64,000 bases of DNA from Fluviicola sp. Lineage in GTDB: Bacteria > Bacteroidota > Bacteroidia > Flavobacteriales_D > Crocinitomicaceae. Each line of letters opens with the position of its first letter. Position 1 is the stretch's first letter. The notes under the pieces are model-generated. The model did not search any database and was not told where the DNA came from. It saw nothing but the letters and a program-made list of their open reading frames with translations. Both the position numbers and the translations under genes were made by a program. The DNA lies in contig NZ_JBCNJT010000001.1 in assembly GCF_039596395.1 (NCBI RefSeq), forward strand, positions 434,001 to 498,000, read 5' to 3'. Shown one piece after another: positions 48,291 through 52,531 of the stretch.

Positions 48291-49319
48291 ATGGAAACAA
48301 ATGAGATTATTAATAAATACATAGGCTTAAGGCCATTGTATAAAAAATTAGCGGCTAATGTCTCAATCATTATTGAAGAATTATTAGAATTACACAATGT
48401 CAACTTTCATGCAGTTAACTATAGAGCTAAGACCGTGGAAAGTTTTTCAGAAAAAATTAAAAAACCTAAATATACTGATCCATTGATTCAATTAACAGAT
48501 TTCGCTGGAATAAGGATAATTGGATATGTAGAAGATGATGTTAATCAGATTGCCAAAATAATTGAAGCCAATTTTGAGATTGATAAAAATCACAGTCTTG
48601 ACAAAAGTTTAGAACTTGGAGTTGATAGAGTGGGATATAAGTCGGTACATTATGTTTGTACTTTACCCAAAAACCGGACAATATTACCAGAATTTGATCG
48701 GTTTAAAGATTTAAAATTTGAGATACAAATAAGAACTATATTGCAACATTCGTGGGCAGAAATAGAACACGATAAGAATTATAAGTTTTCGGGGGAGCTC
48801 CCTCCAGAAATTCAAAGGAGATTCAAATTAGTTGCTGGAAGTTTAGAGCTTGCAGATAGAGAGTTTAATCAATTATCTCGAGAGATTGATAATTATTCAA
48901 AGACTGTTCAGGAAAGTGCTGAAAAAGGTGATTTAGACATTAAACTAAATTCAACAGCCTTAAAACAATTCTTAACTGTTAGATTTGAAAAATTAATTTT
49001 AACAGGTTTGAGGCCCGATTTTAATGGACGAGAATCATATATATTGGGCGAACTTAGAAGATTTGGGATTAAAACATTGTCTGATCTTGATAAAATAATA
49101 GATAAGAGAATTACTGGGCTCAATCTTAAAGGGTCTGTATATGGTAACTTTCTTGGACTTGTTCGTAATATCATGATGTTGAATGATTTAGAAAAGTATT
49201 TCACTAAGTCACATAGAAATGATTGGGGCGTTTTAGATGCATCAAGTAAGCGTGTGTTAGCAAAATTAGGCGTTGATACTTCTAAAGTTGAAGAATATTT
49301 ATCCAATGCTGATAAATAA
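48291..49319 (+). CDS. RelA/SpoT synthetase-domain protein, probably horizontally acquired
   Basis: A 342-residue protein with a complete nucleotide-pyrophosphokinase domain: NYRAKTVESFSEKIKKP near 43-59, DFAGIRII at 70-77, GYKSVHY at 115-121, and EIQIRTILQHSWAEIEHDKNYK from residue 144. No HD hydrolase, TGS or ACT domain is present. The C-terminal part is helical, with a helix-hairpin-helix-like segment near residue 252 (LGELRRFGIKTLSDLDKI). Members make (p)ppGpp-like alarmones or, in toxSAS/CapRel-type proteins, pyrophosphorylate tRNA. Codon use is far AT-richer than neighbouring genes, with TTA, AAT and ATA codons abundant, suggesting transfer. It stands alone between the sucC terminator and a small transcription unit; no antitoxin-like gene touches it. 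Confidence 0.87.
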   Translation: METNEIINKYIGLRPLYKKLAANVSIIIEELLELHNVNFHAVNYRAKTVESFSEKIKKPKYTDPLIQLTDFAGIRIIGYVEDDVNQIAKIIEANFEIDKNHSLDKSLELGVDRVGYKSVHYVCTLPKNRTILPEFDRFKDLKFEIQIRTILQHSWAEIEHDKNYKFSGELPPEIQRRFKLVAGSLELADREFNQLSREIDNYSKTVQESAEKGDLDIKLNSTALKQFLTVRFEKLILTGLRPDFNGRESYILGELRRFGIKTLSDLDKIIDKRITGLNLKGSVYGNFLGLVRNIMMLNDLEKYFTKSHRNDWGVLDASSKRVLAKLGVDTSKVEEYLSNADK

Positions 49320-49403
49320 AGATTTTTTTATTACTACGTAATAAAGGACCCGCCTCCAAAATTTTTTTTCATTTTGTTGACAACCATGTCATTTTTTATG
49401 CGT

Positions 49404-49411
49404 TATCTTTG
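49404..49411 (+). promoter_or_regulatory. -7 promoter element of the short transcription unit
   Basis: TATCTTTG, exact TAnnTTTG match. TTGACA lies upstream at 49377-49382 but at an unusual distance. The transcript would start near 49418, inside a small hairpin TGCCG/CGGCA (49412-49436). Confidence 0.6.
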
Positions 49412-49472
49412 TGCCGTCGAAAAAATAGTGTCGGCAATAACAAGAAGTATAACAATTTTAAAAACCGAAGCA

Positions 49473-49550
49473 ATGATCAATTTCAGTATGACATTAGGAG
49501 CTCCAACCGGCAAGGATGCTGGTGTGCTCGGGCTTTGGGTTTTTCAATAG
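49473..49550 (+). CDS. Candidate 25-residue small protein
   Basis: ATG to TAG giving a 25-residue peptide that starts MINFSMTLGAPTG and ends GVLGLWVFQ. It has a hydrophobic C-terminal third and one tryptophan. No clear Shine-Dalgarno is seen, which is normal in Bacteroidota. It is the only sizeable ORF in a transcript bounded by a consensus promoter and a strong terminator. No family recognised. It could be a leader peptide, a small toxin-like peptide, or chance. Confidence 0.35.
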   Translation: MINFSMTLGAPTGKDAGVLGLWVFQ

Positions 49551-49576
49551 CGATTTCAAAAATCATCTTTATATGA

Positions 49577-49609
49577 AAATCCGAAGCTGTTAGAGGTTTC
49601 GGATTTTTT
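49577..49609 (+). terminator. Terminator of the short transcription unit
   Basis: AAATCCGAA/TTCGGATTT stem followed by seven T. Confidence 0.82.
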
Positions 49610-49886
49610 TGTTTTAGGTACCACCAAAATTTCCCCGGAATCTCTTTTTAATCAAGGTCAGAAATGACTGCAATCAAAAACAGGATTAATCCTTTGTGGG
49701 ATGCATCGACAAGTCGATGATTACTTTCCCGCAAATGCACAGATTTTTTTGCTCGCCTGATGCTTATGCTGAAGCTTCGGCATAGGCGCACCGGACTCGC
49801 TTTTGGAGTTCAAAGGACGACTGGTAAGCGCCATATTTTATCTGTGCATCGGCGGTGAAAAAGGATTTGATCCCAAAGAAAGAAAA
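49610..49886 (+). promoter_or_regulatory. rtcB upstream region with nested inverted repeats
   Basis: No convincing gene here. It holds CATCGAC/GTCGATG (49703-49718) and a larger imperfect hairpin CGCCTGATGC.../GGCATAGGCG near 49754-49788. An exact 10-bp inverted pair, ATGCACAGAT (49735-49744) and ATCTGTGCAT (49840-49849), encloses the large hairpin. The right arm also contains TATCTGTG (49839-49846), one mismatch from the -7 element, 40 bases before the rtcB ATG. The arms match a dispersed repeat also seen at 48041. Confidence 0.45.
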
Positions 49887-51272
49887 ATGGGAAATAAGAT
49901 TAAGGGGAAAGACTTGCTTAAAATAGGCTTCCCCAACGACAACTCTGTAAACATCGCCTTAGGGCTGATCAGCAGGTATAAAAAAAGAGAAACAAAAGAC
50001 CGCGTTCTGAAAGAACTTTCCGAATTGCTTTACGCTCCGGATGAATACATCGGAGACGGGATTTGGGGCAAAGTTGCAGAAGGACTGGTTGCACCGGTTG
50101 AGGTGAAATTCAACGAATTGAAGATCGAACGTTCACCGTTTTTGATTTACGGTGAGAATGAAATTGATGACAAAACAAAACATCAGTTTTACCAGGCTTT
50201 GAAACTTCCTGTTTCAGTACAGGGAGCACTGATGCCTGATGCACATTACGGTTACGGCTTACCGATCGGAGGCGTTTTGGCAACGGATAATGCGGTGATT
50301 CCCTATGGGGTCGGAGTAGATATCGGTTGCCGGATGTCGCTGAGCATTTTCGATGCACCGGCTTCGTTTTTCAACGGGAAAACACATCAACTGGAGAATT
50401 TGCTTTCGGACCACACGAAGTTCGGAATGTACGAAACACACAAGATCAAGCACGATCATTCGATTATGGAAAGCAAGCTGTTTCGGGAAATTCCGCTTCT
50501 GAGAAAGTTGAAAACCAAGGCATACCAGCAATTGGGAACTTCCGGCGGAGGAAACCATTTCGTGGAATTCGGAACGGTAACCATTACCGCTACGGATGCA
50601 GGAATTCCTCCGGGTTCGTACTTCGCATTGCTGAGTCATAGCGGTTCACGCGGTTTAGGTGCAGCGATTGCCAAACAGTACACACAATTGGCAGTGAAAC
50701 AATGTCCTTTGCCGAGATCCGTGCAGCATTTGGCCTGGTTGAACCTGGATACGCACGACGGACAGGAATACTGGAATGCCATGAACCTCGCCGGTGAATA
50801 TGCAAAAGCTTGCCACGATGATATTCACGCACGATTGACCAAAAAGTTGGGGCTCCGCATGTTGATGACGATAGAGAACCATCACAATTTTGCATGGAAG
50901 GAAACCGTAAACGGCAATGAATGCATTGTGCACCGGAAAGGAGCAACCCCGGCAGGCCTGGGAGAACTGGGAATCATTCCCGGAAGTATGACTGCTCCCG
51001 GATTTATTGTCCGCGGATTGGGAAATGCTTCCAGCCTGAATTCTGCTTCACACGGCGCCGGACGCGTATTTTCCCGTTCGGAGTGTAAGAGCAGGTTCAC
51101 GAAAAGTGAGATGATGAAAACCCTGAGTAATGCTGAAGTCAGTTTGATCGGAGGTGCGGTGGACGAATGCCCGATGGCATATAAGAATATCCACCATGTG
51201 ATGGGAAATCAGCAGGAACTGGTAGAAACGATCGGGACATTTACTCCGAAGATTGTACGAATGGATAAGTAA
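49887..51272 (+). CDS. rtcB: RtcB-family RNA ligase (PrfH-associated type)
   Basis: GTP- and Mn-dependent ligase joining 2',3'-cyclic-phosphate or 3'-phosphate RNA ends to 5'-OH ends. The product is 461 residues from the ATG at 49887; a longer TTG start at 49803 would add a non-conserved stretch crossing the promoter-like element. Family signatures are present: MPDAHYGYGLPIGGVLATD, GVGVDIGC (metal cysteine 148), GGGNHFVEFG (histidine 224), LLSHSGSRGLG, IENHHNFAW, and SHGAGRVFSR with the histidine that carries GMP at 389. It is followed 6 bases later by prfH, an association known for a distinct RtcB subgroup that repairs cleaved ribosomal RNA. Confidence 0.94.
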   Translation: MGNKIKGKDLLKIGFPNDNSVNIALGLISRYKKRETKDRVLKELSELLYAPDEYIGDGIWGKVAEGLVAPVEVKFNELKIERSPFLIYGENEIDDKTKHQFYQALKLPVSVQGALMPDAHYGYGLPIGGVLATDNAVIPYGVGVDIGCRMSLSIFDAPASFFNGKTHQLENLLSDHTKFGMYETHKIKHDHSIMESKLFREIPLLRKLKTKAYQQLGTSGGGNHFVEFGTVTITATDAGIPPGSYFALLSHSGSRGLGAAIAKQYTQLAVKQCPLPRSVQHLAWLNLDTHDGQEYWNAMNLAGEYAKACHDDIHARLTKKLGLRMLMTIENHHNFAWKETVNGNECIVHRKGATPAGLGELGIIPGSMTAPGFIVRGLGNASSLNSASHGAGRVFSRSECKSRFTKSEMMKTLSNAEVSLIGGAVDECPMAYKNIHHVMGNQQELVETIGTFTPKIVRMDK

Positions 51273-51278
51273 CAAGAC

Positions 51279-51974
51279 ATGGAAACTAAATTATTACATA
51301 TCACAACGGCAAAAGGCCCTTTGGAATGCCAGCTGGCAGCCGGAAAAATTTTGGGGGCTTTGCTGGCAGACCTGAGACAAAAAGGCTTGCAGGCCGAAAC
51401 AATGGATCGGGTAGCAGGCCCGGAAAGCGGAACAATTTTATCCGCCACCATCCAGGTCAAAGGAATTGCGATTCAGACAGCAATTCAATCCTGGTTAGGG
51501 ACGATACAATGGATTCAAAAGAGTCCGTATCGTCCCAATCATGGGCGAAAAAACTGGTTCGTAGGGATTTTTGAAATCAATCCGGCAGAAACCATTCGCT
51601 GGGACGAAAACGAGATCGTTTACCAGTCCGTTCGAAGCAGTGGTTCCGGCGGACAGCACGTGAATAAAGTCAGTTCAGCAGTTCGGGCAACACATACTCC
51701 AAGCGGAGTATCGGTCTTTGTACAGGAAAGCCGTTCACAGCTGCAAAACAAGAAAATTGCCCGCGAACGCATCCGTGAAAAACTGGAAAAGGCCCAAAGT
51801 GAAAAACTGGTCGAAGTGGTCAATCAAACCTGGTCACAGCATCATGAACTGGAACGCGGAAACCCGGTGAGAACGTTTACTGGAATGGACTTTAAGCCGA
51901 AAAAGGCAGAAAAGAACTTTAAGAAACAACGGAATCAGTTGAAAAAAGAATTATACAAAGAATTGAAGCAATGA
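51279..51974 (+). CDS. prfH: Peptide chain release factor homologue PrfH
   Basis: A 231-residue class I release-factor homologue. It has the peptidyl-tRNA hydrolysis motif GGQ at residues 124-126 in the context [21 protein letters not shown], then the conserved basic tail region ([22 protein letters not shown]). The domain that reads stop codons (PxT/SPF region of RF1 and RF2) is absent, which is what separates PrfH from RF1/RF2. PrfH is thought to release the nascent chain from ribosomes damaged in the decoding centre so that RtcB can religate the rRNA. It lies 6 bases after rtcB and overlaps the next gene by 4 bases. Confidence 0.93.
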
Positions 51975-52450
51975 CAGCAAACATTTACTTAGTAAAAGCA
52001 CTGGATTATTATCCGTATAACCTGGAAGAAGCCCTGGAATCGTTGAATTATGCCATGGCTTATGAAGAAAACAATCCGATTGCACTTTGCCTGATGGGGC
52101 GGGTGCAATTGGAAATTTTCAAGGATTATCCGCAGGCAAACAGTTATTTCAGGGAAGCATTGGCAGCCAGTGTGAATTACCTGGAAACCTACACCTATTT
52201 TTTGGATTGCCTGTTGATCCAGGAAGAATTTGAAGAGATGGCGAAATTACTGGCCTTTGCCCGAAAACGCAAAGGAATCGACCGGGCGCTGATGTTCTAT
52301 TACGAAGCATTGCTTTTGGAGAAACAACTCAAATTTAAAAAAGCGCAGAAAGCCATTAAAGAAGCAATGATGCTGGCTCAAACCGGTTCGTTTATGTCGG
52401 ACCTGGAAGAAATGAAAAAGCGGATTGAGAAAAAAGTGGCGCTGAAATAA
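51971..52450 (+). CDS. TPR-like helical protein, third gene of the rtcB-prfH operon
   Basis: A 159-residue, all-helical cytoplasmic protein with about four TPR-like units: [32 protein letters not shown], then [30 protein letters not shown], then [32 protein letters not shown]. There is no signal peptide and no membrane segment. Its ATG overlaps the prfH stop (ATGA), indicating coupled translation. TPR proteins mediate protein-protein contacts; here it may bind RtcB, PrfH or the ribosome (inference). A terminator follows, so the operon is exactly these three genes. Confidence 0.82.
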
Positions 52451-52499: not shown

Positions 52500-52531
52500 C
52501 AACAGAAAGCACTTTCGGGTGCTTTTCTGTA
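52500..52531 (+). terminator. Terminator of the rtcB-prfH-TPR operon
   Basis: ACAGAAAGCAC/GTGCTTTTCTGT stem with a TTTCGG loop. The 3' T-tract is short, so strength is uncertain. Confidence 0.55.

Follow-up and report, generated by a model that had tools for sequence, protein, structure and literature searches.

A probable translation-reading leader upstream of a conserved rtcB-prfH-TPR operon in Fluviicola and other Bacteroidota

Introduction

In Escherichia coli ATCC25922, an rtcB-type RNA ligase gene and prfH, encoding peptide chain release factor H, lie in tandem, and their products (RtcB2-PrfH) act on ribosomes cleaved by colicin E3: PrfH is reported to free the trapped peptidyl-tRNA, and RtcB to rejoin the broken 16S rRNA (PMC9223846). 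Here we analysed a 64,000-nucleotide (nt) stretch of a 4.6 Mb Fluviicola sp. genome (contig NZ_JBCNJT010000001.1, positions 434,001 to 498,000; hereafter the window), in which such a tandem pair is followed by a third gene, for a tetratricopeptide repeat (TPR)-like protein, and is preceded by a leader that probably ties transcription of the operon to translation of a short open reading frame (ORF). The E. coli locus differs in that no TPR gene lies 3′ of prfH in the record examined; the word "leader" is absent from the accessible text of PMC9223846, where regulation by a leader is undescribed.

Closer in its control is PA5471.1-armZ-PA5470 (prfH) of Pseudomonas aeruginosa, which also has a leader ORF. 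In the model proposed in the accessible parts of PMC12057347 and PMC13041342, complete translation of the leader leads to a 3:4 terminator, and stalled or lost leader translation turns on the RtcB-like gene beside prfH; deletion of the leader, or an amber codon in it, raised ArmZ (PMC13041342). The same parts describe no TPR gene adjoining armZ, which also controls an efflux pump. The Fluviicola-type leader ORF and its RNA form a family separate from PA5471.1, mostly with 24-29 codons and with CGAAG/CTTCG segments.

The third gene has been noted before. According to section 2.4 of Burroughs and Aravind (2019; PMC6514570), some RFH-RtcB operons accrete a TPR gene, a possible scaffold like Rqc1, which is the first accessory gene listed there, beside a Pol-beta nucleotidyltransferase (NTase), a Zn-ribbon protein and a charged protein. 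The third gene is therefore not new, as a preliminary description of the window had supposed, and the TPR family found here is presumably the one listed in 2019. What that section mentions is neither a leader, nor a PrfH tail, nor counts.

Results

A leader with alternative hairpins precedes rtcB

The leader lies upstream of rtcB, outside the region covered by the preliminary description. The parts of the leader and the three operon genes in the window are as follows.

49373..49411, + strand: Bacteroidota-type promoter, TTTG near -33 and TATCTTTG at -7, conserved in relatives
49453-49614: leader with ORF and alternative hairpins
49460..49471, + strand: segment 1, AAAAACCGAAGC, directly 5′ of the leader start codon
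49473..49550, + strand: leader ORF of 25 codons, MINFSMTLGAPTGKDAGVLGLWVFQ-stop, from the sequence and relatives
49532..49546, + strand: segment 2, 5′ arm of the antiterminator, within the end of the leader ORF, from folding and covariation
49575..49587, + strand: segment 3, arm common to antiterminator and terminator, from folding and covariation
49575..49611, + strand: intrinsic terminator hairpin (segments 3:4) with T-run, from terminator scan and covariation
49887..51272, + strand: rtcB, PrfH-associated RNA ligase of 461 amino acids (aa), divergent branch, Pfam RtcB at 2.7e-80
51279..51974, + strand: prfH, peptide chain release factor H of 231 aa with a basic C-terminal extension
51971..52450, + strand: TPR scaffold-like gene, 159 aa, its start overlapping the prfH stop

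The promoter was assigned with what we take to be the Bacteroidota consensus; TATCTTTGTGCCGTCG had one match only in the window. Upon folding, the end of the leader ORF (GCUUUGGGUUUUUCA) was able to pair with the 5′ arm of the terminator.

For comparison, loci were merged and duplicates removed, leaving 121 unique loci: 98 with TPR gene and prfH, 13 with the TPR gene only and 10 with prfH only (L136 among the TPR-only and L081 among the PrfH-only loci are truncated by a contig end). A leader finder, defined as a terminator plus a 15-45-codon ORF and run on the 121 operon upstreams, was positive in 93. By class, it found a leader in 85 of the 92 loci with both genes and at least 300 nt of upstream sequence, in 7 of 12 TPR-only loci and in one of nine PrfH-only loci (the cut L081). 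By eye, the leader or a variant was also present upstream in L062, L063, L176 and L191, of which L062 and L063 are TPR-less, and farther upstream in L166 and L177; L074-L076 carry a third leader type, with an ORF ending in AIGKS and different segment sequences. The finder yielded nothing on 20 x 121 shuffled upstreams, and eight matches elsewhere in the loci (2.16 Mb, both strands summed), of which those of L166 and L177 lie upstream of the same operon while in L145 the finder picked up the locus's own leader read on the reverse strand. Among the 93 positive loci, 91 have an ORF of 24-29 codons at the leader position and 88 have C(G/A)(A/G)AG no more than 16 nt from the leader ATG.

Across 14 genomes of the genus, strong matches to the leader region were confined to the nine with the TPR operon. 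Four others (G010, G030, G059, G112) gave short matches only (best 24 bases, E 7e-4), and G046, in which the operon is absent, gave a partial match of 72% over the first half. No Rfam family reached its gathering score anywhere in the window, and a permissive Rfam search of 49200-50000 gave chance-level matches only (best E 1.8). In the literature searched, no published description of a Bacteroidota leader of this kind was found.

Covariation supports both hairpins

In segment 2, CTTCG and one bulged base are followed by GGC, GGT or GAC among Flavobacterium, Chryseobacterium and Aquimarina, with accompanying changes in segments 3 and 4. Counted over 91 of the 93 loci (455 cells, 2000 shuffles), segments 2:3 were paired in 424 cells against a shuffle mean of 379 and maximum of 395, and segments 3:4 in 445 against a mean of 409 and maximum of 421; because the rows are related, these shuffle counts are not probabilities. 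Restricted to 64 non-redundant loci, 2:3 was paired in 289 of 320 cells (shuffle maximum 267). A separate count on alignment A6 gave 91.4% (2:3) and 96.9% (3:4) paired cells, a level reached in 0 of 500 shuffles, and slides of 1-3 columns gave far lower pairing. For 2:3 the number of pair types does not stand out, being reached by 272 of 500 shuffles.

The ORF was kept open in the loci found, and shuffled ORF interiors stayed open with a mean probability of 0.26 (42 of 44 A6 rows). Over 214 pairs, which are not independent, codon differences at positions 3/1/2 numbered 721/648/725, without third-position bias, and 1200 of 1606 changed codons were non-synonymous. As changes are even over codon positions and mostly non-synonymous, the peptide is without obvious selection though its frame is kept open. 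The locus has two marks of a leader-peptide attenuator, a short ORF before a terminator in 93 of 121 loci and an alternative antiterminator backed by covariation, with translation of the ORF putative.

In the phylum sample the leader coincides with the TPR operon

Specificity was examined in 395 Bacteroidota genomes (the phylum sample) with model R2, built from 44 leaders and run with strict filters, so that some weak matches are lost. R2 matched 36 genomes at E<=0.01. The best 27 places (E<=3.5e-10), together with G515 (8.4e-5) and G483 (3.0e-4), fall in exactly the 29 genomes that carry the TPR family, and in all 29 the match lies, by comparison of coordinates, on the operon strand and upstream of the first operon gene. 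The best match in the 366 non-TPR genomes was 8.4e-4 (G216), and neither of the two PrfH-only genomes (G166, G270) had an R2 match. At least nine rows of R2 come from genomes of this sample, so finding those genomes is not independent; the lack of matches elsewhere is.

Predicted switch and its weighing

For RNAs ending just 3′ of segment 3, folding predicts 2:3 in 41 of the 42 leaders when the RNA is free and in all 42 when a ribosome sits at the start codon or at codon 4, but in just one when the ribosome has reached the stop codon. Since 2:3 forms unless a ribosome sits at the stop, the default is predicted to be ON, a finished leader meaning OFF. The mutually exclusive 2:3 and 3:4 hairpins and the ORF stop adjoining segment 2 are features of trp-type leader-peptide attenuators; the Fluviicola-type leader differs from these in lacking a run of control codons and in its negligible predicted segment 1 pairing.

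We propose that a healthy ribosome reaching the leader stop would cover segment 2, so that 3:4 would form and transcription would end, and that after failed initiation or an early stall segment 2 would pair with segment 3 and the operon would be transcribed. PrfH would then free the stuck peptidyl-tRNA, after which RtcB would reseal the cut 16S rRNA. According to the accessible part of PMC2615495, cleavage by colicin E3 lowers the initiation efficiency of ribosomes in vitro by about 30%, and the cleaved ribosomes come to a halt a few codons on; from this early halt, their state is expected to leave segment 2 free. The TPR protein would most likely serve as a scaffold that retains PrfH, RtcB or both on the damaged ribosome, possibly through the basic tail of PrfH; this last step is the least certain and is put forward tentatively. 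The preliminary description had offered damage sensing as a role of the TPR protein, and the RNA leader upstream of rtcB explains sensing better.

Several observations weigh against this scheme. At equilibrium, only a minority of the 42 full-length leaders prefer 2:3 to 3:4: 5 do so when free, 11 with a ribosome at the start and 14 with one at codon 4. The window leader with a ribosome at the start has 3:4 at 0.997. As equilibrium favours the terminator, the switch must be kinetic, that is, co-transcriptional; attenuators in general rely on co-transcriptional kinetics. Segment 1 was rejected as the strong competitor of a full trp scheme, 1:2 exceeding 0.5 in 1 of 42 free RNAs. Outside the operon, G393 has a partial R2 match at 2.4e-5, a score at least as good as those of G515 and G483, whose leaders consequently rest on position and not on score. 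Finally, a 2025 review states, in its accessible part, that the Pseudomonas attenuation model requires further studies (PMC12057347).

Two other explanations of the leader were considered. A classical amino-acid-starvation attenuator, with stalling at control codons and an incidental link to repair, would share the architecture of trp and his leaders, and the Fluviicola leader ends in LWVFQ. Clues of leader-peptide attenuation for amino-acid operons appear for Flavobacterium psychrophilum in the accessible part of PMC9723704, and in P. aeruginosa two codons (Gln, Phe) of PA5471.1 matter for one inducing condition (PMC13041342). The leaders have no control-codon runs, however: the longest single-residue run is 1 in 45, 2 in 47 and 3 in one of the 93 peptides, Trp makes up 0.7% of their residues, and the peptide sequence drifts. 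Besides, prfH or this rtcB lies downstream in 27 of the 29 leader genomes (G515 and G374 have the TPR gene without them). We hold starvation control to be quite improbable. Instead, the leader might be a small RNA in its own right, or its ORF an independent small-protein gene that ends in a terminator of its own, with rtcB transcribed from a different promoter. The about 275 nt of poorly conserved sequence between terminator and rtcB in the window would suit this, but we hold it to be unlikely, because the peptide is unconserved, the leader keeps its place upstream of the operon in all 29 genomes, and segment 2 covaries with segment 3, which a plain terminator would not need. As judged from sequence, a leader-controlled ribosome rescue-and-repair operon, on when the leader ORF is left unfinished, is the probable reading.

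Leader-ORF control may be general to rtcB-prfH repair modules, each of several unrelated-looking families sensing damage through a test ORF that ribosomes fail to translate; we give this about an even chance. The candidate families are the CGAAG/CTTCG, AIGKS and MTERTLISPMPLTA/MKHLTSISPLSLIA types, E. coli and PA5471.1, of which the first was analysed here and the rest are single sequences or small sets. In TPR-less L058, L194, L201 and L237, other short ORFs lie upstream of the rtcB operon (MTERTLISPMPLTA, MTEQFYISSLFIAA, MKHLTSISPLSLIA and MLVYHSNIAL, respectively); that of L237 is at 1845-1877, and those of L058 and L237 stand behind a strong GGAGG. These short ORFs of TPR-less Bacteroidota are possibly a second leader family. 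E. coli rtcB2 (L236:1747-1794) is preceded by a 15-codon ORF, MTNPLSMTLCRPFQD, with AAGGAGG in front and ending about 64 nt before rtcB; the accessible text of PMC9223846 makes no mention of it.

The operon genes

The tandem arrangement of rtcB, prfH and the TPR gene given in the preliminary description was borne out by coordinates and by Pfam and NCBIfam matches, as was the overlap of the TPR ATG with the prfH TGA as ATGA. The same 4-base overlap occurs in L067, L068, L069, L071, L072 and L073; because start codons are ambiguous, there is no reliable count of it across loci. PrfH scored 227.7 bits with NCBIfam TIGR03072, above the curated cut-off of 166.65. RtcB, a clear Pfam RtcB, fell below the cut-offs of the known PrfH-linked RtcB models (173.5 of 407 bits for PRK09588, 147.2 of 271.8 bits for TIGR03073), and for this reason it is placed in a divergent branch. 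By sequence check, C148, H224 and H389 of RtcB, which we take to be its metal/guanylylation residues, and GGQ at 124-126, presumably the PrfH motif, are all present, as previously described, and the rescue-and-repair reading of the pair is likewise supported at the sequence level. The terminator said to follow the TPR gene directly is weaker than described.

About 52503..52529, + strand: hairpin 3′ of the TPR gene, 10 base pairs (bp), without T-run

This hairpin is absent from the terminator-scan listing, and a terminator role is thus unsupported by the scan. Taken together, the conserved operon is genuine, its third gene is known in outline, and the novelty is its probable control by a translation-reading leader.

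The TPR protein and its occurrence with prfH

AlphaFold, with an alignment of 46 sequences, predicted nine helices for the TPR protein at a mean pLDDT (predicted local distance difference test) of 95.2, and the best PDB matches of this structure in Foldseek were TPR proteins (best E 6.9e-5). Pfam TPR models stayed under their gathering scores (best TPR_11, 17.0 of 26.8 bits; best E 0.0048). Given the predicted helical fold and the PDB matches, the label "TPR-like" for the 159-residue protein appears correct despite the sub-cut-off Pfam scores. Within its own genome a protein search found the protein alone, and a profile search counted a second, weaker match; a phage collection gave no match. 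Among the best 80 of 387 relatives in a scan of named genomes, 79 are Bacteroidota by name and one is labelled Glaciecola (a doubtful label); the closest named relative by TPR protein is Fluviicola, at 94%. In 107 loci the TPR core is acidic and the C-terminal tail basic, with a median net charge of -8 vs +10.

In 150 genomes of the window's family, PrfH was counted above the TIGR03072 cut-off. It was present in 22, and 18 had a strong TPR match (E<=3.9e-24). All TPR matches except that of G042 adjoin a prfH (17 of 18), two of these prfH being below cut-off or a fragment (G007, G124). The TPR gene is present in 15 of the 22 genomes with PrfH; G112, G020, G107, G134, G120, G033 and G048 are without it. 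In the phylum sample, where the TPR family was delimited at E<=5.8e-38 with the next match only at 9e-16, PrfH above cut-off occurs in 28 and the TPR family in 29 of 395 genomes. The two genes are adjacent in 26, PrfH is alone in G166 and G270, and the TPR gene is alone in G515, G374 and G483. Absence of the TPR gene from nearly all related loci, which would have spoken against the preliminary description, was not what the survey of prfH neighbours found (adjacent TPR gene in 26 of 28 phylum and 15 of 22 family genomes). The third partner is conserved, as that description had it; "fixed" is too strong, with 10 PrfH-only and 13 TPR-only loci among the 121.

A basic tail of PrfH and the partner of the TPR protein

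In TPR operons, PrfH carries a basic C-terminal extension of about 25 aa (about 26 aa in the window). Measured as residues after the GNP motif, with seven TPR-positive loci without the motif left out, the tail is at least 27 aa in 85 of 91 measurable TPR-positive loci. The short-tailed ones are L127, L168, L130, L076, L080 and L173, among which residues resembling the tail follow in a different frame in L080, L130 and L173. In eight of nine measurable TPR-negative loci the tail is at most 12 aa, and that of L061 is 29 aa with a different composition. As the tail tracks the TPR gene, and the TPR protein combines an acidic core with a basic end, it is plausible, from sequence, that the TPR protein holds the PrfH tail and rRNA.

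Two results speak against the tail idea. On a tree of 54 rows, thinned to about half of the TPR-positive rows and without the short or motif-less PrfH of L066, L127, L168, L080, L130 and L173, the TPR gene changes three times; with three changes the link of tail and TPR gene cannot reach significance, and the independent-pair test is under-powered. The PrfH tail as a proven TPR ligand was accordingly set aside. The idea is further weakened by the 13 of 111 TPR loci in which PrfH is missing (L136 being one), four of which have rtcB alone (L140, L156, L166, L222).

Instead of PrfH, the partner may be RtcB or the 30S subunit, a possibility that we put somewhat short of even. In those four of the 13 PrfH-less TPR loci, rtcB stays adjacent, the TPR gene coming immediately after it and no intervening prfH being called, and a TPR tail of +10 against a core of -8 fits contact with rRNA; on the other hand, prfH is adjacent in 26 of 29 TPR genomes and the PrfH tail tracks TPR presence. 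A passenger TPR gene that plays no part in repair seems highly improbable: its absence from 7 of 22 family prfH genomes and from behind prfH in the E. coli record would allow it, but tight adjacency, a common leader and residues conserved across genera do not fit.

Neighbouring genes and other features

Like the RFH-RtcB neighbourhoods in the accessible part of PMC6514570, these loci have a TPR gene adjoining RFH-RtcB together with NTase-like and Zn-ribbon-like neighbours. One representative of each recurrent neighbour cluster was scanned with Pfam. An NTase-like neighbour of about 182 aa recurs in 23 loci (hint 0.003, below cut-off), a Zn-ribbon-like one in 8 (hints 0.035-0.037, below cut-off), a Lys/Arg-rich one of about 240 aa in 38 (no Pfam match) and an exonuclease in 24 (RNase_T 1.2e-16). 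These neighbours appear to fit the 2019 list. In L074, L075 and L078, genes with an RNA_ligase domain, HD plus AAA kinase-like and amidase-like genes lie 3′ of the TPR gene, and in L074/L075 a PcfJ-like gene sits between rtcB and prfH.

In the window, an AT-rich gene with a RelA/SpoT domain (48291-49319) lies directly 5′ of the leader region. It was rejected as a candidate for the Pol-beta NTase listed in 2019, occurring in 0 of 25 other loci compared (several with short upstreams). Upstream of the promoter lies a further feature.

49328..49344, no strand: inverted repeat TTATTACTACGTAATAA, possible operator, from the sequence

The repeat is kept with paired changes in aligned relatives, as TTATAACTATGTTATAA in L068 and TTATAACTACGTTATAA in L072. 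In G046 (L233), a version of TTATTACTACGTAATAA stands before another ORF, the operon being absent. A 62-bp stretch between leader and rtcB (49801-49862) recurs as an 81% copy on a different contig of this genome. No tRNA was found in the window.

Significance

What is new here is the probable translation-reading leader; the TPR third gene was already known, and a similar logic had been proposed, with experimental support, for P. aeruginosa. How a cell detects cut ribosomes when the response itself needs ribosomes is an open question. If the scheme is true, a leader that is ON by default unless a 25-codon test ORF is finished would be the answer for these Bacteroidota, and the leader would be a compact, testable reporter of ribosome damage. 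Leader control makes damage sensing testable, and the scheme suggests why the RtcB-like gene in Pseudomonas lies behind a leader peptide.

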